Shown here: piece by piece, positions 37,609 to 51,255 of the stretch | Layout: each line of letters begins with the position of its first letter | Position numbering within the stretch: position 1 is the first letter of the stretch | Source of the DNA: Terriglobia bacterium | GTDB taxonomy: Bacteria; Acidobacteriota; Terriglobia; Acidiferrales; UBA7541 | Direction of reading: 5' to 3' | Length of the DNA: 64,000 bases | Assembly (NCBI GenBank): GCA_020072785.1 | Contig: JAIQGG010000002.1 | Location: 1,178,001-1,242,000 of the forward strand | Notes under the pieces: model-generated | The model's input: only the letters and a program-made list of their open reading frames with translations | The model's database searches: none | Told to the model about the DNA's origin: nothing | Program-made: the position numbers and the translations under genes

Positions 37609-37748
37609 TTTTTCCGGGCGTGCATTCTTGGCAACAATTCCGCGGGGATTGTCATCCAACCGGCGGACTCCCATGCTAGCCTCAGCGTACCCACCCTCTT
37701 GTACGACAAATGCCAGGTGAGCTTTTGCGCCGATCAAAACTTCCGCGA

Positions 37749-39671
37749 ATGCGTTTCCTGCTCGCGTGCCTGCCGGTGATTGCGGCGGGGCAGCTGCTGG
37801 GCGCTCCGGCGGCGCCGGCGCAGATCTCTCCCGGGCCGCTTTCGAAAGCGCACCAGTCACTGAGCGGGGCGACGCAGTGCACCAGTTGCCATGTGCTGCG
37901 CATGGGCTCGGCGGAGCTAAAGTGCCTGGACTGCCATACGGAGATTGCGCGGCGGCTGCGCGAGCATCGCGGGCTGCACGCCGCGGTGGTCCAGGATGCG
38001 GCGCCGGGCAAGGAGTGCGCGCGTTGCCATTCCGAGCATAACGGAGAGGATTTCCAGCTCATTCACTGGGAGACCCCGCTGGCGTCGTTTGACCATCGCA
38101 AGACCGGGTACGCGCTGGAAGGGAAGCACGCCGCGCTGGATTGCAAGCGCTGCCACACCGCGGAACACATCACGGCGGAAGAGCGCAGCCAGATCCGCAT
38201 GAAGGACCTGGGGCGCAGCTGGCTGGGGCTGACGCGCGATTGCGTAAGCTGCCACAAGGACCCGCACAGCGGGCATCTGGGCAACAACTGCACGCAGTGC
38301 CACAACTTCACGGACTGGAAAGCGGGAGCGCAATTCGATCATTCCAAGACGCGTTTTCCGCTGACCGGGCTGCACGTGCGGGTGGCCTGCGCCAAATGCC
38401 ACGTTTCCGGGGGGCCGGAGGGAAAGGCGCAGTACAGCGGGCTGGCGTTTGCGGCTTGCGCGGACTGCCACAAAGATCCGCATCGCGGGGCCTTTCGGCA
38501 GGCCTGCGAGGCATGCCACAGCACGGAGGGCTGGCGGCAGGTGCGCCTGGGACAGACCTTCGATCACGCCAAGACGGCGTATCCGCTGCTCGGCAAGCAT
38601 CAGGAAGTGGGCTGCGTAAAGTGCCACGGGGGAGCGGATTTTCACAAGCCGCTCGCGCATACCCTGTGCGCCGATTGCCACAAGCCCGATCCACACCAGG
38701 GGCAGTTCCGGGAGCGCGCGGGAGGCGGCGACTGCGCGGGGTGCCACACGGTCAATGGCTTCAAGCCTTCCACGTTCGGCGTGAAGGAACACGGCACCTC
38801 GCAGTATCCGCTGGCGGGCAAGCACGCCGAGGTGGCCTGCGCGAAATGCCATCTGCCGGCGGGCGCGGCGACGCTCTACAAGATCAAGTTCGAGCGCTGC
38901 CTGGATTGCCACAGTGATGTGCATCGCGGGCAGTTCGCGGCGGCGCCGTATCTGGGGAAGTGCGAAAGCTGCCATACCGTCGAGGGATTCCACCCGGCGA
39001 AGTTCACCCTGGCGCAGCATGCGAAGACGCGCTTTCCGCTGGAAGGCGCGCACCCGGCGGTGGTCTGCAAGGATTGCCATCGCGAAGAGTCGATCAACGG
39101 GGAACGCACGGCGCGCTATCGCTTCGAGGACCGCACCTGCACGGCCTGCCACAAAGATCCGCACGAAGGGAAATTCCGCTCCTGGATGGAGCGCGTGCGC
39201 AGCGACGGCACGCGCGCGGGATGCCGGGCCTGCCATTCGCTGCAGTCCTGGAGGGACGCCGCGGGATTTGACCACTCGACGACGAAGTTTGCGCTGACCG
39301 GAGCGCACCGCGGAGTGGCCTGCTCCGGGTGCCACAAGCCCAGCGGGGCGGAAGCCGCGGCGCGCGAACTGGCCTTCCGCACGGCGCCGACGGTGTGCAG
39401 CGAGTGTCACGCGGATCCGCACGGCGGGCAATTTGCGCGCGGTGGCAAGGCTACGGATTGCACCGGCTGCCACAGCACGGCGAAATGGGTTCCCTCGCGT
39501 TTCGATCACGAGCGGAATACGGTATTCCCGCTGAAGGGGGCGCACGAGCGCGTTTCCTGCGGTTCCTGTCACAAACTTGTGGAAGAGAGAGACGGGAAAA
39601 ACGTGCTCCTGTACAAGCCGACCCCGAAGGCTTGCGTGGAATGCCACGGGGACCGAGAGTTCCCCAATTAG
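37749..39671 (+). CDS. 23-haem c-type cytochrome, exported
   Basis: 640 aa from the ATG at 37749 (an in-frame ATG at 37710 would lengthen the leader). The signal peptide MRFLLACLPVIAAGQLLG is followed by 23 CXXCH haem sites from end to end. Repeated landmarks are CHKDPHxG(H/A/K)F and FDHxKTxFPLxGxH, which provide extra His as distal ligands. It resembles the next gene in the FDH-KT-FPL-G-H motif, so both derive from one module. A periplasmic or surface electron conductor is likely. Confidence 0.92.
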   Translation: MRFLLACLPVIAAGQLLGAPAAPAQISPGPLSKAHQSLSGATQCTSCHVLRMGSAELKCLDCHTEIARRLREHRGLHAAVVQDAAPGKECARCHSEHNGEDFQLIHWETPLASFDHRKTGYALEGKHAALDCKRCHTAEHITAEERSQIRMKDLGRSWLGLTRDCVSCHKDPHSGHLGNNCTQCHNFTDWKAGAQFDHSKTRFPLTGLHVRVACAKCHVSGGPEGKAQYSGLAFAACADCHKDPHRGAFRQACEACHSTEGWRQVRLGQTFDHAKTAYPLLGKHQEVGCVKCHGGADFHKPLAHTLCADCHKPDPHQGQFRERAGGGDCAGCHTVNGFKPSTFGVKEHGTSQYPLAGKHAEVACAKCHLPAGAATLYKIKFERCLDCHSDVHRGQFAAAPYLGKCESCHTVEGFHPAKFTLAQHAKTRFPLEGAHPAVVCKDCHREESINGERTARYRFEDRTCTACHKDPHEGKFRSWMERVRSDGTRAGCRACHSLQSWRDAAGFDHSTTKFALTGAHRGVACSGCHKPSGAEAAARELAFRTAPTVCSECHADPHGGQFARGGKATDCTGCHSTAKWVPSRFDHERNTVFPLKGAHERVSCGSCHKLVEERDGKNVLLYKPTPKACVECHGDREFPN

Positions 39672-40025: not shown

Positions 40026-42218
40026 GTGGAAGCCACTTCCGGTCTGTGTGCGAGGTGCGTCTCTTTGGCGACAGGTCTGCCACTCCTGCTGCAGCTGTTG
40101 TTGTTTCTGCTGGGTCAGCCCGGTATGGCACAGGCGCGCCCGGAAGTGCCGCAAGTCTCCGCGCGCAATCCGCACGGGCCGCTGACGATTCCTTGCGAGA
40201 ACTGCCACACGTTCACGAGCTGGAAGCCCATCCGCAGCGTTCCAGAGTTCGATCATAGCCACACGCGCTTTCCGCTGCGCGGCATGCACGAAGGGGTGCG
40301 CTGCCGGCAGTGCCACGTCCTCGAAGTATTCAGCAATATCGGGTCGCGCTGCTCGGATTGCCATGCGGACCTGCATCGCGGGCAGTTCGGGGCGCGCTGC
40401 GAGCAGTGCCACACGGTGAAGGGCTGGAGCGTGGCGGTCAAAGCGGTGCAGAACCATCAGAACCGCTTCCCGCTGGTCGGGGCCCATGCGGTGGTCGATT
40501 GCGAAAGCTGCCACCGCGGAGGAGCGACCGGGCAGTTTAGCGGACTGCCCACCGACTGCGTGTCCTGCCACAGCAAGGACTACCAGGGCGCCAAGGGGCC
40601 GGACCATCAGGTGCTGGGTTTTCCCACCACCTGTCAGGTTTGCCATTCCATGAGCAGCTGGTTCGGGGCGTCGTTTGACCATTTGGGCTTCACGGGATAC
40701 GCGCTCACGGGGGCCCATGCCAGGCTGGATTGCCTGGCCTGCCACGTCGGGGGCCAGTTCAAGGGCACGCCGGCGAATTGTTACGCGTGCCACGCCAAGG
40801 ACTATAACGCGACGCAAGACCCCAATCACGCGCAGGCCGGGTTTCCGACGGATTGCGGCACCTGCCACACCACGGCGAGCTGGGCCGGGGCCAAATTTGA
40901 CCACAACACGTTCACGAAATTTCCGCTGACGGGTGCGCACGTCAACGTGCCATGCTCGCAATGCCACGTCAACGGGAAATACGCGGGGACGCCAACGGAC
41001 TGCGCGGCGTGCCACCTGCCGGATTACCAGAAAACGACGAACCCGAATCACGTGCAGGGCGGATTTCCGCAGACGTGCGACGTCTGCCATAACACGACGG
41101 CGTGGCAGCCGGCGAGTTACGATCACAACAAGACCGCGTTTCCGCTGACGGGGGCGCACGTCAACGTGCCGTGCGCGCAGTGCCATATCAACGGCAAGTA
41201 TGCGGGAACACCGACGGACTGCGCGGCGTGCCACTTGCCTGATTACCAGAAGACGACGAACCCCAATCACGCGGCGGCGGGATTCCCGCAGACGTGCGCC
41301 GTCTGCCACAACACCGCGGCGTGGCAGCCGGCGATCTTCGACCACAGCAAGACGGTGTTTCCGCTGACGGGGGCGCACGTCAATGTGGCCTGCACGCAGT
41401 GCCATATCAATGGGAAGTACGCGGGCACGCCGACGAACTGCGCCGCATGCCATCTGACCGACTACCAGAAGACGACCAACCCGAATCACGCGGCGGCCGG
41501 GTTCCCGACAGATTGTTCGCTGTGCCATTCCACGGCGTCGTGGGCGGGGGCGACGTTCAATCACAACCAGACGCAGTTTCCGCTGACGGGGGCGCACGTC
41601 AACGCGGCCTGTTCGCAGTGCCACAGCAGCGGAGTGTACAAGGGGCTGAGCACGGACTGCGTCTCGTGCCACCTGCAGAACTACAACAGCACCACGAATC
41701 CCAACCACGTGGCGGCAGGTTACCCGCAGCAGTGCAACATTTGCCACAACACCACGGCGTGGCAACCGGCGACGTTCGATCACAGCAAGACGGCGTTTCC
41801 GCTGACCGGGGCGCACGTGAGCGTGCCGTGCGCGAGCTGTCACATCGCCGGGGTCTATGCCGGGACGCCGACGGACTGCTATTCCTGCCACAAGAAGGAA
41901 TATCAGAGCACCACCGACCCCAACCACGTGGCCGCGGCGTTTCCGACGACCTGCCAGACCTGCCACACGACGTCGAGCTGGCTGGGGGCGACGTTCAATC
42001 ACACCTGGTTCCCGATCTATTCGGGGACGCACCAGGGGAAGTGGACGACGTGCGCCGACTGCCACGTCAATTCCGCGAACTACGCGGCGTTTTCCTGCAT
42101 CACCTGCCACACCCATGCCCAGTCGAATGTGGATCCGCAGCATTCCGGCGTGAGCGGGTACGCGTACAGCGCGACAAGCTGTTACTCCTGCCACCCGCAG
42201 GGAGTCGCGGGGAATTGA
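40026..42218 (+). CDS. 28-haem c-type cytochrome with 73-residue tri-haem repeats
   Basis: 730 aa from a GTG at 40026 (start uncertain; a TTG at 40065 would also leave the signal helix LATGLPLLLQLLLFLLGQ). It has 28 CXXCH sites. From residue about 177 the protein is six near-identical modules of 73-74 aa, each with three CXXCH and three extra His (in PNH, FDH or FNH, and GAH), enough for bis-His ligation of three haems. The final CXXCH is 12 residues from the end. No membrane anchor besides the leader. It probably forms an extended haem wire in the periplasm or through the outer-membrane barrel encoded next. Confidence 0.92.
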   Translation: MEATSGLCARCVSLATGLPLLLQLLLFLLGQPGMAQARPEVPQVSARNPHGPLTIPCENCHTFTSWKPIRSVPEFDHSHTRFPLRGMHEGVRCRQCHVLEVFSNIGSRCSDCHADLHRGQFGARCEQCHTVKGWSVAVKAVQNHQNRFPLVGAHAVVDCESCHRGGATGQFSGLPTDCVSCHSKDYQGAKGPDHQVLGFPTTCQVCHSMSSWFGASFDHLGFTGYALTGAHARLDCLACHVGGQFKGTPANCYACHAKDYNATQDPNHAQAGFPTDCGTCHTTASWAGAKFDHNTFTKFPLTGAHVNVPCSQCHVNGKYAGTPTDCAACHLPDYQKTTNPNHVQGGFPQTCDVCHNTTAWQPASYDHNKTAFPLTGAHVNVPCAQCHINGKYAGTPTDCAACHLPDYQKTTNPNHAAAGFPQTCAVCHNTAAWQPAIFDHSKTVFPLTGAHVNVACTQCHINGKYAGTPTNCAACHLTDYQKTTNPNHAAAGFPTDCSLCHSTASWAGATFNHNQTQFPLTGAHVNAACSQCHSSGVYKGLSTDCVSCHLQNYNSTTNPNHVAAGYPQQCNICHNTTAWQPATFDHSKTAFPLTGAHVSVPCASCHIAGVYAGTPTDCYSCHKKEYQSTTDPNHVAAAFPTTCQTCHTTSSWLGATFNHTWFPIYSGTHQGKWTTCADCHVNSANYAAFSCITCHTHAQSNVDPQHSGVSGYAYSATSCYSCHPQGVAGN
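40554..41873 (+). repeat. Six tandem 219-222-base units within the cytochrome gene
   Basis: Units begin at 40554, 40776, 40998, 41217, 41436 and 41655. The middle ones (40998 to 41435) are closest, sharing long stretches of identical bases, which points to recent duplication or gene conversion; a partial seventh follows. Confidence 0.85.
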
Positions 42219-42228
42219 TGAGCAGCGC

Positions 42229-43932
42229 ATGAGATCCGGCGCGGTTATGGTGGCGCTGCTTTTCCTGGCGGGGGCGGGCGCCGCGCAGCAAAAGAGCGAG
42301 ACCTCTCCGGTGTTCCATGTGAAATACGTGGCCGAGGGCATCGTTTATCTCGACGCCGGGCGCAACGCGGGGCTGGCCGAGCATCAGGTGCTAAAGATTG
42401 TGCCGCCGGCGGCGGGCGCAGGGGCCAGCCGCGGCGAGCAACTGCAAGCCGAGGAAATCGCGACGATCGAGGTCAGCGCGCTGGCGGATGCCTCGGCGGT
42501 TTGCGAGATTGTGACGTCCACGCGCCCGCTGCGCGCCGGCGACGTGGCCATCCTTCCCCCGGGGACGGAGGCCGCGGCGGCACCGGCTTCGGCGGGAGTA
42601 GCGCGACCGTACCTGCAGGTGCTTTCCTTCACAACCGGGGATCCTCTGGACGAAGAGGTGCGCGAAGCGTTGCCGCGGCAACGGCCGCTGCCGGAGATCA
42701 ACCGCGCGCGCGGACGAATTGGGGTGGAATACAGCTCGGTGTACGGGCGCGGAAGCACCGCTTCGAGCAACTCCGAACTGGGGCTGGTGCTGCGCGCGGA
42801 CATGACGCGGCTCGGGGGCAGTTACTGGAATTTCAGCGGCTACTGGCGCGGGCGGCTGAATCACCATTCCGGCTCGCAGCCGCAGACGATCAACGATCTC
42901 ATCAATCGCACGTACCAGCTCAACTTTGTTTACAACAACCCGTATTCCTCGCTGGTGGCGGGAGCGGGCCGCCTGTACTTGCCGTGGGCCAGCAGCCTGG
43001 ACGCGATAGACGGGGGCTACGCCGGACTGCGCACCTTCAATGGGATGATCGCGGGAGTGTTCGCGGGCTCCACGCCCGACCCCGCCTCCTGGGACTACCA
43101 GCCGGACCGGCGGATCGGGGGACTTTTCGTGAACCTCGAGCGCGGGCGGTTTGAGGGCCTGCACCTGATCAGCACGGGGGGCGTGGCCATTTCGACGATC
43201 GGCTGGCGCGCGGAAAGGCAGTTCGGGTTTGCGGAAAACACGCTGAGCTATAAACGCTGGGTAACGCTGTACCACTCGATGCAGGTGGATCTGCCGCATA
43301 CCTACACGGCCGCCAATCCCGCCAACCCGGCGACCCCGATCGCCACCACGTATGGGGGAATCAACCGCAGCTACCTGACGCTGCGCTTTCAGCCGCACCC
43401 GCGCCTGGCCTTCGATTTGAATCACAGCTATTTCCGGGGCATGCCGACGTTCGACCCGGTGCTGATCGGCACCGGGCTGCTGGACAAATATCTGTTCCAG
43501 GGTTTGAGCGGGGGGGTGCGCGCGGAAGTGGTGCGGCACGTCACGCTGTACACCAGCATCGGGCGCAGCAACCGGACGGGGGATACCAAGCCTTCCTGGA
43601 ATCAGATGTACGGGATCACCCTCGGCAGGGTCCTGAACACGGCGTGGCGCGCCGATCTGCGCTATTCGCGCTTCGACAGCGTGATCGGGCAGGGAAGTTA
43701 CGAGTCGCTCTCGCTCTCCCGGCAATTGCGGGAAGATCTGCGCTGGGAAGCGCAGGCCGGCTTTCAGCGGCTGAATTCGCTGAATGCCACGAGCGCCACT
43801 TCGCATTTCGCCACTACGCAGATGGACTGGTCGCCCGGGCGGCATCTCTTCCTGCAGGGAGGATTCACCTGGCAGCGCGGCGGGCTGGTGAACTACGACC
43901 AGCTCTTATTCGTGGTGGGAGAGAGGTTTTAG
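42229..43932 (+). CDS. Outer-membrane beta-barrel protein of the cytochrome cluster
   Basis: 567 aa. Signal peptide (MRSGAVMVALLFLAGAGAAQ), then a small N-terminal beta domain (VYLDAGRNAGLAEHQVLKIV, about residues 38-60), then alternating amphipathic strands from residue about 160 to the end, finishing in Phe (VVGERF) as outer-membrane barrels do. It starts 10 bases after the 28-haem gene. Position and fold suggest a pore that houses or docks the cytochrome, a role like MtrB or Geobacter OmbB, although no sequence similarity to those is visible to me. Confidence 0.78.
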   Translation: MRSGAVMVALLFLAGAGAAQQKSETSPVFHVKYVAEGIVYLDAGRNAGLAEHQVLKIVPPAAGAGASRGEQLQAEEIATIEVSALADASAVCEIVTSTRPLRAGDVAILPPGTEAAAAPASAGVARPYLQVLSFTTGDPLDEEVREALPRQRPLPEINRARGRIGVEYSSVYGRGSTASSNSELGLVLRADMTRLGGSYWNFSGYWRGRLNHHSGSQPQTINDLINRTYQLNFVYNNPYSSLVAGAGRLYLPWASSLDAIDGGYAGLRTFNGMIAGVFAGSTPDPASWDYQPDRRIGGLFVNLERGRFEGLHLISTGGVAISTIGWRAERQFGFAENTLSYKRWVTLYHSMQVDLPHTYTAANPANPATPIATTYGGINRSYLTLRFQPHPRLAFDLNHSYFRGMPTFDPVLIGTGLLDKYLFQGLSGGVRAEVVRHVTLYTSIGRSNRTGDTKPSWNQMYGITLGRVLNTAWRADLRYSRFDSVIGQGSYESLSLSRQLREDLRWEAQAGFQRLNSLNATSATSHFATTQMDWSPGRHLFLQGGFTWQRGGLVNYDQLLFVVGERF

Positions 43933-44763
43933 ATGGGCGGAGCGTGGAAGCGCGAAGCGCGGGGATGGCAGGCGCTGGCTGTCGCGGCTCTTTTGGCCGG
44001 GCTCTGGTCGCTTCCGCTGCGTCTGAGCGCGCAGGAGCCGCCGGCAAGCGCGGCCGACGGCGCTCTTCTGCGGCGCGCCGGGTCCGCCGCGGAAGAGCTC
44101 ATCACGAACCTGAGTATGGTCCGGTACATCGAGCACGTATCGCAGTACAAGCTGCGCAGCAACGGGAAGCCGGAGTATCAGCAGGAGGCTTTCTTCGATT
44201 CGCTGATGCTGGTACACGTGAAAGACGGGCGCATGAGCGCCGAGGAATCGCTGCAGGCAGAGAAGCCAGCGGTGCGTTTTGAGCAGCGCCCGCTGCTTAC
44301 CACCAGCGGCTTTTCAACACTGGCTCTGATCCTGCATCCCTACTACGAGCCGAGCTTCCGCTTTACTCCGCTGGCGGAGGAAGTGGTGGAAGGGCAGCGC
44401 TTCCTGCGCCTGCATTTCGAGCACGTGAAGGGCGCGGACTCCCCCACGGTTCTGCGCCTGCGCAATCGCGATTATCCCATCGGGCTTTCCGGGACGGTGT
44501 GGCTCGACGCCCAGAGCGGGGCGGTGGCGCGCATCACCGGGGAGCTGGCGGAGCCGCTGGACGATATCGGGCTGCACAGCCTGAGCTGCGACGTGCGGTA
44601 TGCCTCCGTCGAGCTGCAGAAAACGCCGGAGAAACTGTGGCTGCCGGTTTCGGCCACGGTGGACCTGGAAACACCGCGCCAACACTGGCGCAATGTGCAC
44701 GTTTTTTCCGGCTACCGGCGATATTCCGTGGACGTGCACGTGGGACCAGGAGGAACGCCATGA
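43933..44763 (+). CDS. Exported LolA-like protein of the cytochrome cluster
   Basis: 276 aa with an N-terminal signal helix (ALAVAALLAGLWSLPLRLSAQ). The mature part is mostly beta-strands (YIEHVSQYKLRSNG, FRFTPLAEEVVEGQRFLRLHFEHV, GTVWLDAQSGAVARITGEL), the pattern of LolA/LolB or outer-membrane lipoprotein-sorting folds. It starts directly after the barrel stop codon and its own stop overlaps the next start (ATGA), so it is tightly bound to the cluster. It may help place the barrel or a lipidated part. Function not proven. Confidence 0.68.
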   Translation: MGGAWKREARGWQALAVAALLAGLWSLPLRLSAQEPPASAADGALLRRAGSAAEELITNLSMVRYIEHVSQYKLRSNGKPEYQQEAFFDSLMLVHVKDGRMSAEESLQAEKPAVRFEQRPLLTTSGFSTLALILHPYYEPSFRFTPLAEEVVEGQRFLRLHFEHVKGADSPTVLRLRNRDYPIGLSGTVWLDAQSGAVARITGELAEPLDDIGLHSLSCDVRYASVELQKTPEKLWLPVSATVDLETPRQHWRNVHVFSGYRRYSVDVHVGPGGTP

Positions 44764-45707
44764 GCTCGATTGCCACAAGCCCAGCCGCCAGCGCCGCCCA
44801 GATGCGGCGCCCAGGTGTGGCGCTGCACAATTTTCTACTGTACGTGTTGGTGATCGCCGGCGCCGCGCTGACGCTGGGGCTGATGATCTACGGAGCGAAC
44901 TACTACACGCTGGACCAGGCGCATCGCGCGTTGTCTCCCAAGCATGCGTATCTGAAGCCGAGCGGAATGATCGGTATCCGTCTGGGGCTTCTGGGGGTGG
45001 GTCTCTTCTTGTGTCTTTTCCTCTACGCCATCCGCAAAAGCTGGAAATGGCTTTCGAAGGTGGGGAATTCGCGGCACTGGCTGAACTTCCACGTGGTTCT
45101 GGGCGTTCTGGCGCCGGTGGTCATCACGTTTCATTCCTCGTTCAAGTTCCGGGGACTGGCGGGGATCGCCTACTGGATCATGATCGCGGTAGCGATCAGC
45201 GGATTTATCGGACGCTACATTTATGCGCAGATCCCGCGCAGCCTGGGTGCGGCCGAGGTGTCCATGAAGGAGCTGCGCGAGGAGAGTGCGCGCCTGGCGG
45301 AGAGGCTCAAGGCGCAGGAAGTGCTGGCACCCGAGGATTTCGCTGCGCTGCTGCGGCTGCCGTCGCCGGCCGAGGTGCAGTCCATGTCCTCGCAGGAGGT
45401 GCTGTGGCTGATGCTGCGCTTCGACGTGGCGCGGCGCTGGGGCATCGCCGAACTGCGCCGAAAAGCGCTGCGTTCGTTCGGCGGGAACGCGGTCCTGTGG
45501 GGCATGATCCGTTCGCACCATCCCCAGGTGGAGAGCGTAATCGACTGCCTGAACGAAGAGGCCTATTTGAACAAGAAAGCGCTGTTCCTGTCCAAGGCCC
45601 AGGAGCTGTTCCAGCTGTGGCACGTCGTGCACCGGCCGTTTAGTTATTCCTTCGTCGTCCTCGCGTCTATTCACATTGCCGTGGTCCTGCTCCTGGGTTA
45701 TTTTTGA
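44760..45707 (+). CDS. Four-helix membrane protein, predicted di-haem b cytochrome
   Basis: 315 aa, four membrane segments (about 26-46, 74-92, 108-126 plus 135-153, and 293-313) with a long soluble loop (160-285). Two helices carry His pairs 14 residues apart: His111/His125 (HVVLGVLAPVVITFH) and His291/His305 (HRPFSYSFVVLASIH). This H-x13-H spacing is how ferric reductases, NADPH oxidases and bc1-type cytochrome b hold two stacked haems across the bilayer. It would carry electrons from cytoplasm or quinol to the periplasmic cytochromes. Translationally coupled to the LolA-like gene. Confidence 0.75.
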   Translation: MSSIATSPAASAAQMRRPGVALHNFLLYVLVIAGAALTLGLMIYGANYYTLDQAHRALSPKHAYLKPSGMIGIRLGLLGVGLFLCLFLYAIRKSWKWLSKVGNSRHWLNFHVVLGVLAPVVITFHSSFKFRGLAGIAYWIMIAVAISGFIGRYIYAQIPRSLGAAEVSMKELREESARLAERLKAQEVLAPEDFAALLRLPSPAEVQSMSSQEVLWLMLRFDVARRWGIAELRRKALRSFGGNAVLWGMIRSHHPQVESVIDCLNEEAYLNKKALFLSKAQELFQLWHVVHRPFSYSFVVLASIHIAVVLLLGYF

Positions 45708-45746: not shown

Positions 45747-47261
45747 ATGGATACGTTCCTCACGGTGCTGGTCGCCTCGCTGGTGACGCTGTTTTTCGTC
45801 CGCGGCTATCTGAAGAAGCTGACGGCGAAGAAACCGGCGCGTCCGGCGGGCACGGCCCATGCGGCGGCGGGCGCGCCAGGCGCGGTTGCCGCGAAAACGA
45901 TTGCCTGCCCGCGCTGCGGCAAGGCCATCGGGGAATCTTCCGCGTTTTGCTCGCACTGCGGGGCGGCGCTGGCCATGTGGAGCGTGCACCGCGCCGCGGT
46001 GAACGCCCCCAGCGGAGGAGCCAAGGGCAAGCCGAAGCCGGTGATCAACGCTTCGCTGTGCATCGGCTGCGGTTCGTGTATTGAAGCCTGCCCGGAGACG
46101 GGGGCCCTGGAACTCGTCGGTGGCAAAGCCATCCTTGCTCACCCGGACCGCTGCACCGGCCACGCCAAGTGCGCGGAAGTCTGCCCCACGCAGGGCATCC
46201 TCTACTCCTACGACGGCGCGCTGCAGACCGTGCGCGTGCCGCTGGTGAAGGAAAACTTCGAGACCAACGTGCCGGGAGTCTTCATCGTGGGCGAGCTGGG
46301 AGGCATGGGGCTCATCAAGACGGCGGTGAACGAAGGCAAGCTGGTGATGGATCACGTGCATAAGCGCGTGGGAAAAACCGCCAAGCCGGCTGCGCATGGG
46401 CACGAAGAGGCGCCCGCCGAAGCCGCGAGGCCGGACGAAGTCCGCGACGTTTTGATCGTCGGCGCGGGCCCCGCGGGTCTGAGCGCGGCCCTGACCGCGC
46501 ACCAGTACGGATTGAATTACCTGGCCATCGAGCAGGGGGAGATCGCTTCCACGATTCGCCACTATCCCCGGCAGAAATTCCTGATGGCGGAGCCGCTGGA
46601 GATTCCGCTCTACGGGCCGCTGTATGTAAGCGACGGCACGAAGGAGGCGCTGCTCTCGGTATGGGAGACGATTGTGGCGAATACCGGGGTGCGCGTGCAG
46701 ACCAACGAGCGCGTGGAGCGCGTGGCGCGCAACACGGGCGGCTTCGTCGTGGAGACCTCTAAGGGCCAGTATCATGCGAAGAACGTGATCCTGGCCCTGG
46801 GCCGCCGCGGGACGCCGCGCAGCCTGGGTGTGCCGGGGGAGGATCTGGCCAAGGTGGCCTATGCGCTGATCGAGGCCGAGAGCTACGAGAACAAGGACAT
46901 CCTGATCGTGGGGGGCGGCGATTCGGCGGTGGAGTCGGCGGTGGGTCTCAGCAAGCACAAGCGGAATCGCGTGACGCTCTCCTATCGCGGCGAAAACTTT
47001 CAGCGCGCCCGCGAGCGCAATCAGAAATTCATCGCCGAAGCCGAGGCGCAGGGGCAGCTGAACGTGCAGCGCAGTTCCCAGTTGCGCGAAATCCGCGAAA
47101 AGTCCGTGGTGCTCGAAGTGGCCGGGAAGACCGTGGAGATTGCCAACGACTACGTCTTCATCCTGATCGGCGGAGTTTCCCCCGAGGAGTTTCTCAAGAA
47201 AACGGGGATTGAAATCGTGGAAAAGTCGCTGGCCGTGGCCGCCGACCGGTCGTTCAGCTGA
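45747..47261 (+). CDS. Membrane-anchored Fe-S flavoprotein with permuted TrxR/YpdA-like domain
   Basis: 504 aa. N-terminal membrane anchor (residues 2-19), zinc ribbon (Cys54, 57, 68, 71), two ferredoxin sites (Cys105, 108, 111, 115 and Cys136, His139, Cys142, Cys146), then a thioredoxin-reductase-like domain: FAD motif VLIVGAGPAGLSAA at 235-248 and NAD(P)H motif ILIVGGGDSAVESA. The redox CxxC of thioredoxin reductases is absent, as in YpdA. The segment FETNVPGVFIVGELGGMG (171-188), which normally closes the FAD domain at the C-terminus, precedes it here, so the fold seems circularly permuted. It probably passes electrons from NAD(P)H via FAD and Fe-S to the haem b protein encoded just upstream. 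Confidence 0.8.
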   Translation: MDTFLTVLVASLVTLFFVRGYLKKLTAKKPARPAGTAHAAAGAPGAVAAKTIACPRCGKAIGESSAFCSHCGAALAMWSVHRAAVNAPSGGAKGKPKPVINASLCIGCGSCIEACPETGALELVGGKAILAHPDRCTGHAKCAEVCPTQGILYSYDGALQTVRVPLVKENFETNVPGVFIVGELGGMGLIKTAVNEGKLVMDHVHKRVGKTAKPAAHGHEEAPAEAARPDEVRDVLIVGAGPAGLSAALTAHQYGLNYLAIEQGEIASTIRHYPRQKFLMAEPLEIPLYGPLYVSDGTKEALLSVWETIVANTGVRVQTNERVERVARNTGGFVVETSKGQYHAKNVILALGRRGTPRSLGVPGEDLAKVAYALIEAESYENKDILIVGGGDSAVESAVGLSKHKRNRVTLSYRGENFQRARERNQKFIAEAEAQGQLNVQRSSQLREIREKSVVLEVAGKTVEIANDYVFILIGGVSPEEFLKKTGIEIVEKSLAVAADRSFS

Positions 47262-47382
47262 CGGGAAGAACGGCGCCCGAGCGCTTTTCCGCCGCGCGGT
47301 ATCTCTCTCCTTGCCTTGCGCTCTGATATACACTCTTTGATCGAAGCATCTGTTTCTTTTGGCTCCGACCACCGGAGGCCCC

Positions 47383-48030
47383 ATGCACGACGACCTCTAC
47401 CCCGCGCTGCGGCAGTGCATCATCGACGGAGATCCCGAGCAGGCAAAAGAGATCTGCCAGCGTGCGCTGGCCGCGGGCATGGCCCCGCTGGACGCCATCA
47501 ACGAAGGGCTGGTGCCGGGACTGAACCACGTGGGCGAGCAGTTCGCGCAGGGGGAGATGTTTCTGCCGGACCTGGTGATGGCCGGGGAAGCGATGAAGGC
47601 GGCGACGGCGATTCTGGAACCGGCCATGCAGAAGGCGGGCGCGCGCCGCGAAACGCTGGGGAAAGTCGTGCTGGGCACGGTCCAGGGCGACATCCATGAA
47701 ATCGGGAAGACGCTGGTAGGCACGATGCTCTCCGCCAGCGGTTTCGAGGTGCACGACCTCGGCGTGGACGTGCCCTTCGATACGTTCGCCGTGAAGGCAA
47801 GGGAACTGAACGCCGACATCGTGGGAGTTTCCGCACTGCTCACCACCACGATGACCGGGCAGAAGAACGTGGCGGAGGCGCTGGAGCGGAACGGGCTGCG
47901 CCCGCGGGTGAAGATCATCGTGGGCGGCGCGCCGGTCACGCGGGGCTGGGCGGAGGAGATCGGCGCGGACGGCTACGGGGAAGATGCGCTGGCGGCGGTG
48001 GCGCTGGCGAAGGCGCTGGCCGGGAAGTGA
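47383..48030 (+). CDS. Corrinoid (B12-binding) methyltransferase protein
   Basis: 215 aa. N-terminal helical cap (LYPALRQCIIDGDPEQAKEICQRAL) and a B12 Rossmann domain with the lower-ligand motif GDIHEIGKTLVG (D-x-H-x2-G), then VSALLTTTM and IVGGAPVT. This is the MtbC/MttC/MtgC type of methyl-carrying corrinoid protein. It is directly followed by an MttB-family methyltransferase, its likely partner. GGAGG precedes the ATG at 47383; a TGATATACA extended -10 lies about 55 bases upstream. Confidence 0.92.
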   Translation: MHDDLYPALRQCIIDGDPEQAKEICQRALAAGMAPLDAINEGLVPGLNHVGEQFAQGEMFLPDLVMAGEAMKAATAILEPAMQKAGARRETLGKVVLGTVQGDIHEIGKTLVGTMLSASGFEVHDLGVDVPFDTFAVKARELNADIVGVSALLTTTMTGQKNVAEALERNGLRPRVKIIVGGAPVTRGWAEEIGADGYGEDALAAVALAKALAGK

Positions 48031-48069
48031 TCCGGCGGGCGTGTGTGAAGGTGTAACGGTGGACGAGCG

Positions 48070-49524
48070 ATGCAGCCAAAACTGGAAATTCTGGAACGCG
48101 AGCTGATCGAACGAATACTGGGCGAAGCTTTAGCGCTCATTGCCGAGCCCGGCGTCAAAGTGCAGGCGCAGGCCGCGGTGGAGTTACTGGCCGGGGCGGG
48201 GGCGCGCGTCGAGGAGGGCATTGCACACATTCCGGAAGCGCTGGCGCGGCAGGCGCTGGCTTCAGCGCCGCGCGAGTTCTTCCTGCACAACCGCGGCGGG
48301 GAGCCGGTGGTGCGCTACGGGGGCGACGCGGTGCAGTTCGATCCGGGGTCGTCGTGCGTGCACATCCTGGATCCCGCGACGCTCCAGCACCGCATGACGC
48401 AGGCGGCCGACTTGGTGCGGCTGGTGCAAGTGGCGGAGATGCTGCCGCAGTATGCGGCGCAGTCCACCGCGGTCGTATGCAATGACGTGCCCAAGGAGAT
48501 CGGCGATCTGTACCGGCTTTTCCTGGTGCTGCTGCATTCGAACAAGCCGATCGTCACCGGGGCATTTGCGGCGCACACGGTGCCGCTGATGATCGACCTG
48601 CTGGCGGCGGACAGCGGGGGGCGCGAAGCGCTGCGGGGCAGGCCACGCGCGGTGTTCGACGTATGCCCCTCGCCGCCGCTGAACTGGTCGGATTTCGCGG
48701 GGCAGAATCTAGCGGACCTGGCGCGCGCGGGTGTGCCGGCGGAGGTGGTGTCCGTGCCGCTGGCGGGCGCGGCGGCTCCGGTGACGCTGGCGGGCACGGT
48801 GGTGCAGCACGCGGCGGAGTGCATTAGCGGAATCGTGATCCACCAACTGGCGCAGCCCGGAGCGCCGGTGGTGTGGGGCGGGGCGCCGGCTATTTTTGAC
48901 ATGCGCAGCGGGATTACGGCGATGGGGGCGGTGGAAACGGCGATGCTGAATGTGGCCTGCGCACAGGTGGGCAAACATCTGGGGCTGCCGACGCACGGGT
49001 ATCTCACCGGCAGTGACGCCAAGGTGATGGATGCGCAGGCGGGCCTGGAAAGCGGAGTGGCGGCGCTGATGGGCGCGCTGGGCGGGATCAACATGATATC
49101 GGGGGCGGGGATGCTGGACTCGCTGGCGTGCCACAGCCCGGAAAAACTGGTGCTGGACGCGGAAACCATCGCCATGGCGCAGCGTGTGCGCGCCGGGATC
49201 CAGCCGCGCGGGGAGTCGCTGGCGCTGGCCATGTTCGCGCAGGCCGGCTTGCGCGGGGAATTTCTGAAGCTTCCGGAGACGCGCAGGCTTTTTCGCAGCG
49301 AGCAGCATTTGCCTTCCAGCGTGATCGACCGCGGGTCGCTGCACGCGTGGGAGCAGAACGGAGCGAAAGATATGTTCGCGCGGGCGCGGGAACGGGTGAC
49401 GGAACTGCTGGCGGCGTACCGGCGGCCGGCGCTTGCGGCGGAGGTCGAGAGGGAATTGAAAGCCATTGTTGGGGAGCAGGGCAGGCGGGCGGGGATGGAG
49501 CAACTGCCCGGGCTGGGAGTGTGA
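48070..49524 (+). CDS. MttB-family (non-pyrrolysine) methyltransferase
   Basis: 484 aa, the full family length without an internal amber codon, so it is of the MtgB-like group that demethylates quaternary amines (glycine betaine, proline betaine, carnitine and similar) rather than trimethylamine. Landmarks: EPGVKVQAQAAVELLAGAGA, FDPGSSCVHILDP, PTHGYLTGSDAKVMDAQAG and GINMISGAGMLDS. It would move a methyl group to the corrinoid protein encoded 40 bases upstream. The specific substrate cannot be told from sequence alone. Confidence 0.9.
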   Translation: MQPKLEILERELIERILGEALALIAEPGVKVQAQAAVELLAGAGARVEEGIAHIPEALARQALASAPREFFLHNRGGEPVVRYGGDAVQFDPGSSCVHILDPATLQHRMTQAADLVRLVQVAEMLPQYAAQSTAVVCNDVPKEIGDLYRLFLVLLHSNKPIVTGAFAAHTVPLMIDLLAADSGGREALRGRPRAVFDVCPSPPLNWSDFAGQNLADLARAGVPAEVVSVPLAGAAAPVTLAGTVVQHAAECISGIVIHQLAQPGAPVVWGGAPAIFDMRSGITAMGAVETAMLNVACAQVGKHLGLPTHGYLTGSDAKVMDAQAGLESGVAALMGALGGINMISGAGMLDSLACHSPEKLVLDAETIAMAQRVRAGIQPRGESLALAMFAQAGLRGEFLKLPETRRLFRSEQHLPSSVIDRGSLHAWEQNGAKDMFARARERVTELLAAYRRPALAAEVERELKAIVGEQGRRAGMEQLPGLGV

Positions 49525-49529
49525 GCGGA

Positions 49530-50297
49530 ATGCAGCGGGAAAAGATCGCGGCGGGTTCGGTGCAGCTCTTGCAGGACTGGCGGCTGCAAATCGACGTGGA
49601 CATGGTGTTGCGCGGGCAGGGCGCCGACGCCGGAAAGTTGCGCGCGCGAAATGCGCGGGCGGTGGCCGTTGCGGAAAAGGCTTTGCGCGAAGGGATGGCT
49701 TATCTCGATCCGCGCGTGGCTTATCGCCGGCTGGCGGTGCATGCGCTGCGGCATGAGCGCGTGCTTCTGGAAGGCGGCGGGGCGCTGAGCGGACCGTTGG
49801 TGGCGCAGCACCTGGCCGGTGCGCAGCAGGTGCTGGTCGCAGTGGCCACCATCGGAGAAAGGCTAGAGGCGCGGATCTCCGAAGCGATGAGGGACGATCG
49901 ACCGCTGGGCGTGGCGCTGGGCCTGGCGCTGGATGGCTTCGGGACGGCGGCGGTGGAAGCGCTGGCGGCCGCCGTCTGCGGGCATATCGATGAGGTAGCC
50001 TTGCACGAGGAACTGCGCAGTACGACTCCTCTCAGTCCGGGCATGAGCGGCTGGAAGATCGAGGCGGGGCAAAAAGAGATCTTCGGCCTGCTCGGTGCCG
50101 GCGCCGCCGGCGTGCAGCTCAGCCCGTACTGCTTGATGACGCCGCGAAAATCGCTGTCCATGGTTGTGGGGCTCGGCAAAGAGGTCCGCCTGGGCGGGCA
50201 GGTCTGCGACTTCTGCAATCTGCGCGAGACCTGCCGTCACAGGAAGCAGTTCGAAGCGCTGGCCCAGGCCGCGCCGGAAAATAGTTCGTCAAGTTGA
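49530..50297 (+). CDS. MetH activation-domain protein with Cys-rich tail
   Basis: 255 aa. The core LRSTTPLSPGMSGWKIEAG...IFGLLG...GVQLSPYCLMTPRKSLS resembles the AdoMet-binding reactivation domain of cobalamin-dependent methionine synthase. The tail CDFCNLRETCRHRK (Cys226, 229, 235) could bind an Fe-S cluster or zinc. In methyltransferase clusters such proteins are thought to restore Co(II) corrinoid to Co(I). The ATG at 49530 is five bases past the previous stop; a GTG at 49521 overlapping that stop is an alternative start. Confidence 0.78.
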   Translation: MQREKIAAGSVQLLQDWRLQIDVDMVLRGQGADAGKLRARNARAVAVAEKALREGMAYLDPRVAYRRLAVHALRHERVLLEGGGALSGPLVAQHLAGAQQVLVAVATIGERLEARISEAMRDDRPLGVALGLALDGFGTAAVEALAAAVCGHIDEVALHEELRSTTPLSPGMSGWKIEAGQKEIFGLLGAGAAGVQLSPYCLMTPRKSLSMVVGLGKEVRLGGQVCDFCNLRETCRHRKQFEALAQAAPENSSSS

Positions 50298-50298
50298 A

Positions 50299-50318
50299 GC
50301 GCGGATGCCTTCCCGCGC
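50299..50318. terminator. Hairpin between convergent genes
   Basis: GCGCGG (50299-50304) and CCGCGC (50313-50318) form a 6-bp stem in the 43-base gap between the convergent activation-domain and homocysteine methyltransferase genes. No U-run on either side, so it is only a possible terminator. Confidence 0.35.
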
Positions 50319-50340
50319 ATGACCGATTCGCCTTGCTGTT

Positions 50341-51255
50341 CTAGGATTCGCCGCGCGGGGCAAGGGGATGGCCCCAGGAGCGCGCCGCAGCCATGGCGCG
50401 GATGAAGTCGGGGCTGGTGCCGCAGCAGCCGCCGACGAAGGCCGCTCCGGCCGAGACGAGCTCTCGCGCCGCCGCGGCGAACTCCGCAGGCGTCGTGCGA
50501 TAGGCCAGTTTGCCGTTCACGACTTCGGGAAGGCCCGCATTCGGTTTCATCCACACGGGCAGCGGGGAAGCCGCCACGAGGCGGCGGCAGATGGGGATGT
50601 ATTCGCGGATGCCGTTTCCACAGTTCGCGCCGATGGCCTGAACGCCGGCCGCGGCCAGCGCGGTAGCCGCCTGCTCCGGCGTAACGCCCATGATGGTGCG
50701 GTCGCGATTCTTGCCGGAATCGAAGACGAAGGAGACGATCACCGGGAAACCCGTCTCCAGAGCGGCTTCTGCCGCGATGCGCGCCTCGGTGAGGTCGCTT
50801 AGGGTCTCGAGCAGCAGGGCATCCGGACCTTCCGCGGCCAGGGCGCGGGCCTGCGCCGTGAAGGCGTCCTTCATCTGCGGCGCGGTGATCTCCTTGGTGA
50901 CCAGCATTTTTCCAGTGGGGCCGAGCGAGGCGAAGACCAGCGCCGCGTCCTGCGCGGCCTCCCGGGAGATGCGTACCCCGGCGCGATTGATGGCTTCCAC
51001 CTGTGCTTCCAGACCATGCAGAGCGAGGCTGACGGGATTGGCGCGGAAGGTGTTGGTGAGGATCACGCGGCTGCCGGCCTGCACGTAGGCTTCGGCGACT
51101 TCGCGCACCAGCGCCGGCTGCGTGAGGTTCCACTCGTCGGGATCGGCGCCCGGAGGCAGGCCGCGCTTCTGCAGTTCGGTGCCCCAGGCACCGTCGGCCA
51201 GGATGGGAGCGCCGCAAATCCATTGGGCAAAGGGCATGGAGGTAGTGGCCTGCAT
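50341..51255 (-). CDS. Homocysteine S-methyltransferase family protein
   Basis: 304 aa. The zinc-binding cysteines are in IGANCGNG and VGGCCGTSP; ILADGAWGTELQKRG and VILTNTFRANP are N-terminal BHMT/MetH-1 barrel motifs. The barrel moves a methyl group to homocysteine, forming methionine. Convergent with the corrinoid module, it is the natural acceptor partner: amine methyl to corrinoid to homocysteine. A role with S-methylmethionine or betaine directly is also possible. Confidence 0.88.
   Translation of the reverse strand: MQATTSMPFAQWICGAPILADGAWGTELQKRGLPPGADPDEWNLTQPALVREVAEAYVQAGSRVILTNTFRANPVSLALHGLEAQVEAINRAGVRISREAAQDAALVFASLGPTGKMLVTKEITAPQMKDAFTAQARALAAEGPDALLLETLSDLTEARIAAEAALETGFPVIVSFVFDSGKNRDRTIMGVTPEQAATALAAAGVQAIGANCGNGIREYIPICRRLVAASPLPVWMKPNAGLPEVVNGKLAYRTTPAEFAAAARELVSAGAAFVGGCCGTSPDFIRAMAAARSWGHPLAPRGES

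Follow-up and report, generated by a model that had tools for sequence, protein, structure and literature searches.

In a 64,000-nucleotide stretch of a Terriglobia bacterium genome (the window), we identified a gene whose product is almost certainly, as judged from its sequence and those of its relatives, a naturally circularly permuted flavoprotein of the thioredoxin reductase (TrxR)/YpdA-like type. The strand-helix segment that closes the FAD domain is present, but on the N-terminal instead of the C-terminal side of the FAD/NAD(P) core. We further consider it quite probable that this displaced segment, the 'tail', completes the FAD domain in cis and that the permuted flavoprotein passes electrons from NAD(P)H outward. 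The coordinates of the gene, its domains and its operon are collected in the table.

Features of the permuted flavoprotein gene and its operon (positions in the window; res, residues of the flavoprotein)
Feature	Position	Strand	Basis
23-CXXCH multiheme cytochrome c	37710..39671	+	PF14522, E 2.7e-27
28-CXXCH multiheme cytochrome c, repeated modules	40026..42218	+	PF14522, E 6.3e-33
567-aa secreted protein, probable outer-membrane beta-barrel	42229..43932	+	conserved neighbour, same operon
Conserved protein of 276 aa that begins with a signal-like segment, same operon	43933..44763	+	
Partner 4-TM cytochrome b, predicted di-heme	44760..45707	+	two H-x13-H pairs
Permuted Fe-S flavoprotein CDS, 504 aa	45747..47261	+	ORF plus orthologues
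N-terminal transmembrane anchor, res 2-22, then KKLTAKK	45750..45812	+	sequence; TM also in homologues
Zinc ribbon C54-C57...C68-C71	45906..45959	+	PF13240, E 2.4e-6
Ferredoxin-like domain, res 97-147	46035..46187	+	PF13237, E 1.1e-10
Permuted tail, res 158-208: last FAD-domain beta strand (VFIVGEL) and helix	46218..46370	+	profile searches, model
Ala/Pro-rich low-confidence linker, res 209-231, from old C-terminus to old N-terminus	46371..46439	+	
FAD/NAD(P) core, res 232-497: motifs GAGPAG (FAD) and GGGDSA (NAD(P)), no Cys	46440..47237	+	

A sequence-only reading had proposed that the segment FETNVPGVFIVGELGGMG precedes the FAD motif VLIVGAGPAG and that the chain ends just after FILIGGVSPEEFLKKTGIEI, with an anchor, a zinc ribbon and Fe-S sites at the new N-terminus. 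All of these landmarks were found in that order: FETNVPGVFIVGELGGMG at residues 171-188 (46257-46310), VLIVGAGPAG at 235-244 (46449-46478) and FILIGGVSPEEFLKKTGIEI at 471-490, close to the chain end at residue 504, with the three N-terminal elements ahead of them. The core (234-497) matched PF13738 (E 1.3e-48) and also PF07992 (E 8e-29), and carries both Rossmann motifs, for FAD and for NAD(P), as in two-dinucleotide flavoproteins (Pyr_redox_2/3). However, it stops short of the canonical tail position, and its match to the YpdA model TIGR04018 covers only model positions 1-268 of 316. Since the positively charged KKLTAKK follows the anchor, the soluble domains are predicted to be cytoplasmic; the anchor region was helical at 2-27 in a full-length AlphaFold model that was poor overall. 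The zinc ribbon is kept in 16 of 35 aligned homologues. Close orthologues of the ORF (~60-94% identity) occur in Acidobacteriota MAGs, and a frame error or assembly artefact was rejected as the cause of the domain order, which is conserved in independent genomes.

Profile searches identified the tail as the end of a FAD domain. The tail alone (62 residues) gave weak matches (E 0.016-0.078), all of them to flavoprotein models and confined to their C-terminal ends, over positions 256-297 of 300 in TIGR01292, 271-304 of 316 in TIGR04018 and 258-291 of 291 in PF07992. When a profile of 29 tail sequences was compared with the PDB (best E 1.3e-4), all 60 matches listed were two-dinucleotide flavoproteins, including dihydrolipoyl dehydrogenase, glutathione reductase, GltD and thioredoxin reductase, and all were hit at the end of the FAD domain. 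Searching with the two halves swapped, a check suggested together with the original proposal, extended the matches to the ends of the models. The swapped core plus tail covered Pyr_redox_2 to its end (2-291 of 291) and reached the end of TRX_reduct (2-296 of 300, 94.6 bits), whereas the core alone scored 87.6 bits and the core with a shuffled tail 87.8, the shuffled tail giving no extension. A chance match of the NVPG motif was rejected by these profile and shuffle tests.

A sister family with the canonical order provided a direct comparison. In the Sphingobium plasmid protein WP_231568103.1 (L042), the core (15-306) is followed by the tail (307-351; 43.8 bits, E 8e-13), then by two cyclic-nucleotide-binding domains and finally by Fe-S domains, and seven Acidobacteriota genomes encode proteins (L084-L090) with the same core-tail-cNMP-cNMP-Fer4 layout. 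A derived LIKxxxNQG motif is common to the sister and permuted tails and is absent from the tails of the window genome's own TrxR and YpdA. For a reciprocal test, a profile was made from the eight sister proteins, and in 41 permuted proteins the tail was moved behind the core. The appended tail raised the score against the sister profile by a mean of 38.5 bits (range 18.8-48.2), compared with 0.1 bits (maximum 6.8) for 820 shuffled-tail controls. At the level of sequence, this gain, together with a best match of the sister tail profile ahead of the core in 41 of 41 proteins, is the strongest evidence for permutation: 41 permuted and 8 sister proteins contain the same segments in changed order, the hallmark of a circular permutation. 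All eight sister genes adjoin a homologous cytochrome b gene. Because a canonical-order sister with the same derived tail exists beside a homologous cytochrome b, we take the permutation to be genuine and conserved.

Indeed, the tail precedes the core in every one of the 41 permuted homologues, as located by the best match of the sister tail profile. No second tail was found behind the core in any of them, so that the C-terminus offers no full FAD-domain end of the kind that would contradict the rotated fold. Residues P10, G27, E28, L29 and G42 of the tail (alignment A3) are invariant in 35 sequences, placing it among the best-conserved parts of the protein. A match at E < 1e-60 was present in 33 of 396 Acidobacteriota genomes, and the permuted order was also seen in Emticicia (Bacteroidota), on a Pseudoalteromonas plasmid and in seven IMG/VR contigs. 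Additionally, four proteins (L041, L057, L061 and L062) have a second permuted architecture, tail-core-TM, with NapH/NosR-like Fe-S sites. In the tree, the permuted Fer4-type proteins formed one supported clade (95/95), as did the canonical sisters (100/100). The four NapH-like proteins fell outside both, with the canonical sister between them and the other permuted proteins; a tree constrained to hold all permuted rows together was not rejected (AU p 0.223). One or two origins of the permutation are therefore both possible. We would give roughly even chances to a broader scenario, in which one ancient permutation through the FAD Rossmann domain founded a distinct and widespread group of NAD(P)H dehydrogenases that bear Fe-S domains at either new end; this group would feed electrons across the membrane and have spread to at least three bacterial phyla and to large viruses.

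Some homologues showed individual features. A second permuted copy at L035:11882-14071 is fused behind cytochrome b561-like TM helices, and since GE in its tail has changed to RE it may be decaying. The seven virus-like IMG/VR contigs (L063-L069; for example L063:5662-6960), one of them 328 kb long, encode a TM-Fer4-tail-core flavoprotein with 41-42% identity that falls inside the bacterial permuted clade; its neighbours include a ribonucleotide reductase small subunit, a glutaredoxin-like protein, a ClpX-like protein and an exonuclease. Deposited phage records contained no equivalent, only weak core or ferredoxin fragments, and a YpdA query found no match in the viral contigs.

We next consider how the tail meets the core. 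An AlphaFold model of tail plus core, built on 14 sequences, reached a pLDDT of 77.5 and a pTM of 0.73, with block means of mostly ~82-90 for the tail strand and helix and of 55 for the GGMG turn. The tail would probably fold back in cis onto the core and complete the FAD domain. The best solved match was Bdr/YpdA 7a7b (Z 21.0, rmsd 8.2, 260 aligned). In this structural check, which had been suggested with the original proposal, the 7a7b alignment was made with a sequential aligner and covers the core only (chain residues 1-267 of 323, ending where the tail is missing). A full-length model, built on 8 close homologues, was poor (pLDDT 49) and uninformative, and its PDB matches (TM ~0.2) were set aside.

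TrxR/YpdA enzymes are homodimers, which raises the question of whether the tail, although a true FAD-domain tail, completes the domain of the partner subunit. The ~20-residue linker, which varies in length between homologues, could be accommodated by such a swap; however, it is short in some homologues and the monomer model already has a pTM of 0.73 with a confident tail, and we regard a domain-swapped dimer as rather improbable. Far less credible still is that the tail-like segment is the fusion scar of an older upstream flavoprotein and that the core works tail-less, as in domain atrophy. Such a history would fit the usual route to permutation, in which a truncated and a complete copy are fused, and the loss of the GE motif from the second copy at L035, but it sits poorly with a tail that has five residues invariant in 35 proteins and with the finding of no other tail in any homologue. 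We retain a permuted flavoprotein whose tail probably acts in cis. Its chain is opened between the final helix of the core and the tail, a flexible linker connects the displaced tail to the core, and the membrane anchor and ferredoxin-like domain are attached to the new N-terminus.

The redox centres bear on what this protein might do. Two ferredoxin sites had been proposed, and the first is complete (C105/C108/C111/C115), but the second, CTGHAKCAEVCP, lacks its second Cys (C136/H139/C142/C146, with His139 in that position). Among 35 homologues this position is never Cys (H in 30, I in 3, Q and A in one each), suggesting a [3Fe-4S] or His-ligated cluster, and the domain is not a bacterial 2[4Fe-4S] ferredoxin with two complete CxxCxxCxxxCP motifs. 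In the Emticicia homologue (L040:7842-9164) both motifs lack the second Cys (CIGSGAC, CVGHGAC). The absence of the CxxC redox pair, also noted from the sequence, extends to every permuted core, and the core of the window protein has no Cys at all; the catalytic Cys of the YpdA motif GGGPCG reads Ala here (GAGPAG). Taken together, these substitutions make disulfide chemistry unlikely. The score against the thioredoxin reductase model TIGR01292 was 93 bits, against a cut-off of 343.45. Profile and structure both point to YpdA as the nearest family, and a membrane-tethered reductase of bacillithiol or another disulfide, with the Fe-S domain as a sensor, might be imagined. Yet the TIGR04018 score was 180.5 (183.0 when swapped) against a cut-off of 339.9, the cysteines are missing and the gene is linked to cytochromes, so that we give this reading almost no weight.

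The operon places the flavoprotein beside a set of putative electron carriers. The partner cytochrome b has two His pairs 13-14 residues apart on two helices, as in di-heme cytochromes b. These residues (H109/H123 and H289/H303 in the aligned segment) are invariant in six homologues, down to 25% identity and in operons of both the permuted and the canonical order, and are the four predicted for two b hemes; the score against PF01794 was 21.2 bits, below the gathering score of 28. The probable barrel protein had no Pfam match. Across phyla, one of the two multiheme cytochromes keeps ~20-23 CXXCH motifs, while the heme count of the other ranges from 16 to 46, probably through module duplication. 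Among 25 permuted Fer4-type loci with flanks, the di-heme cytochrome b gene was present in 21 and a multiheme ORF likewise in 21. A multiheme ORF was also visible at seven of the eight canonical sister loci, the eighth being cut short. The occurrence of both cytochromes beside either domain order defines a conserved unit of Fe-S flavoprotein, di-heme cytochrome b and multiheme cytochrome c. The four NapH-like permuted proteins had no multiheme neighbours. Downstream (47359-51255) lie genes for a corrinoid protein (PF02607/PF02310) and an MttB-like methyltransferase, with a homocysteine methyltransferase-like gene on the opposite strand; these are probably unrelated, since they were not recognised beside the orthologues inspected. 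The sister operons (L092-L098) encode flavoprotein, cytochrome b and a 10-heme cytochrome (the last at six of the seven loci, the other being truncated). The N-terminus of the 10-heme cytochrome may be an FHA domain, and with the cyclic-nucleotide-binding domains of the sister flavoprotein this makes signalling control of electron export possible.

An electron-transfer role for the permuted flavoprotein is likely. In the mechanism that we propose, NAD(P)H would reduce the FAD and, since there is no disulfide centre, electrons would exit singly via the adjacent Fe-S domain, which, as a result of the permutation, would lie at the membrane directly next to the flavin domain. They would then pass to the di-heme cytochrome b, across the inner membrane, and from heme b to the outside by way of the multiheme cytochromes and a probable conduit in the outer membrane. 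Export is our default guess, and flow from an outside donor is conceivable. An importing operon, which would oxidise an extracellular donor while the flavoprotein reduces NAD(P)+ or feeds cytoplasmic reductases, accepts the permutation equally and differs only in the direction of flow. The direction is not set by sequence, and multiheme conduits can run both ways; against import, no extracellular-donor oxidase was identified in the neighbourhoods inspected, and we consider it unlikely, though the most serious of the alternatives.

Few redox enzymes are as common as the two-dinucleotide flavoproteins, and we know of no described natural permutation within their FAD domain. In the open-access literature searched, no title or abstract described permuted flavoproteins or this operon, and a paper on outer-membrane multiheme cytochromes does not mention Acidobacteriota or Bacteroidota. 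Standard annotation reveals neither the permutation nor the electron-transfer context: the Emticicia and Pseudoalteromonas homologues are labelled 'NAD(P)-binding domain-containing protein'. The persistence of both orders in one phylum beside homologous cytochromes b amounts to a natural experiment that bears on the origin of a permutation and on its possible effect on electron transfer, and the flavoprotein is likely to be the missing link by which NAD(P)H electrons enter multiheme conduits in Acidobacteriota and Bacteroidota.

Among known systems, Bdr/YpdA (TIGR04018; PDB 7a7b, 7a76) is close in the core (174-180 bits, ~30% identity, Z 21.0 over chain residues 1-267), but here the tail comes before the core, the YpdA Cys is absent, an Fe-S domain and anchor are added and the score lies below the family cut-off. 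The TrxR-type ferredoxin-NADP+ reductases (for example PDB 3ab1, 3lzw, 5ygq) have the same fold without a disulfide centre and pass NAD(P)H electrons to Fe-S carriers (PMC9137726). They are soluble, canonical in order and served by a separate ferredoxin, whereas the permuted protein is held at the membrane and has a ferredoxin-like domain fused to it. The canonical sister shares the core (172-246 bits), the LIKxxxNQG tail and neighbouring genes for a homologous cytochrome b and a multiheme cytochrome; it differs in that its tail follows the core and is separated from the Fe-S domain by cyclic-nucleotide-binding domains. The inferred route from NAD(P)H through FAD and two b hemes across the membrane resembles that of NOX/ferric reductases; however, the flavin domain is unrelated and sits on a separate chain with the Fe-S domain, and the cytochrome b falls below the PF01794 cut-off. 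Finally, multiheme cytochromes and a probable outer-membrane barrel in one operon recall porin-cytochrome or Mtr-type conduits, but the cytochromes here are of c7/c3 type with 23 and 28 hemes (16-46 elsewhere), and the place of a quinol oxidase as entry point at the inner membrane would be taken by a flavoprotein-cytochrome b pair.
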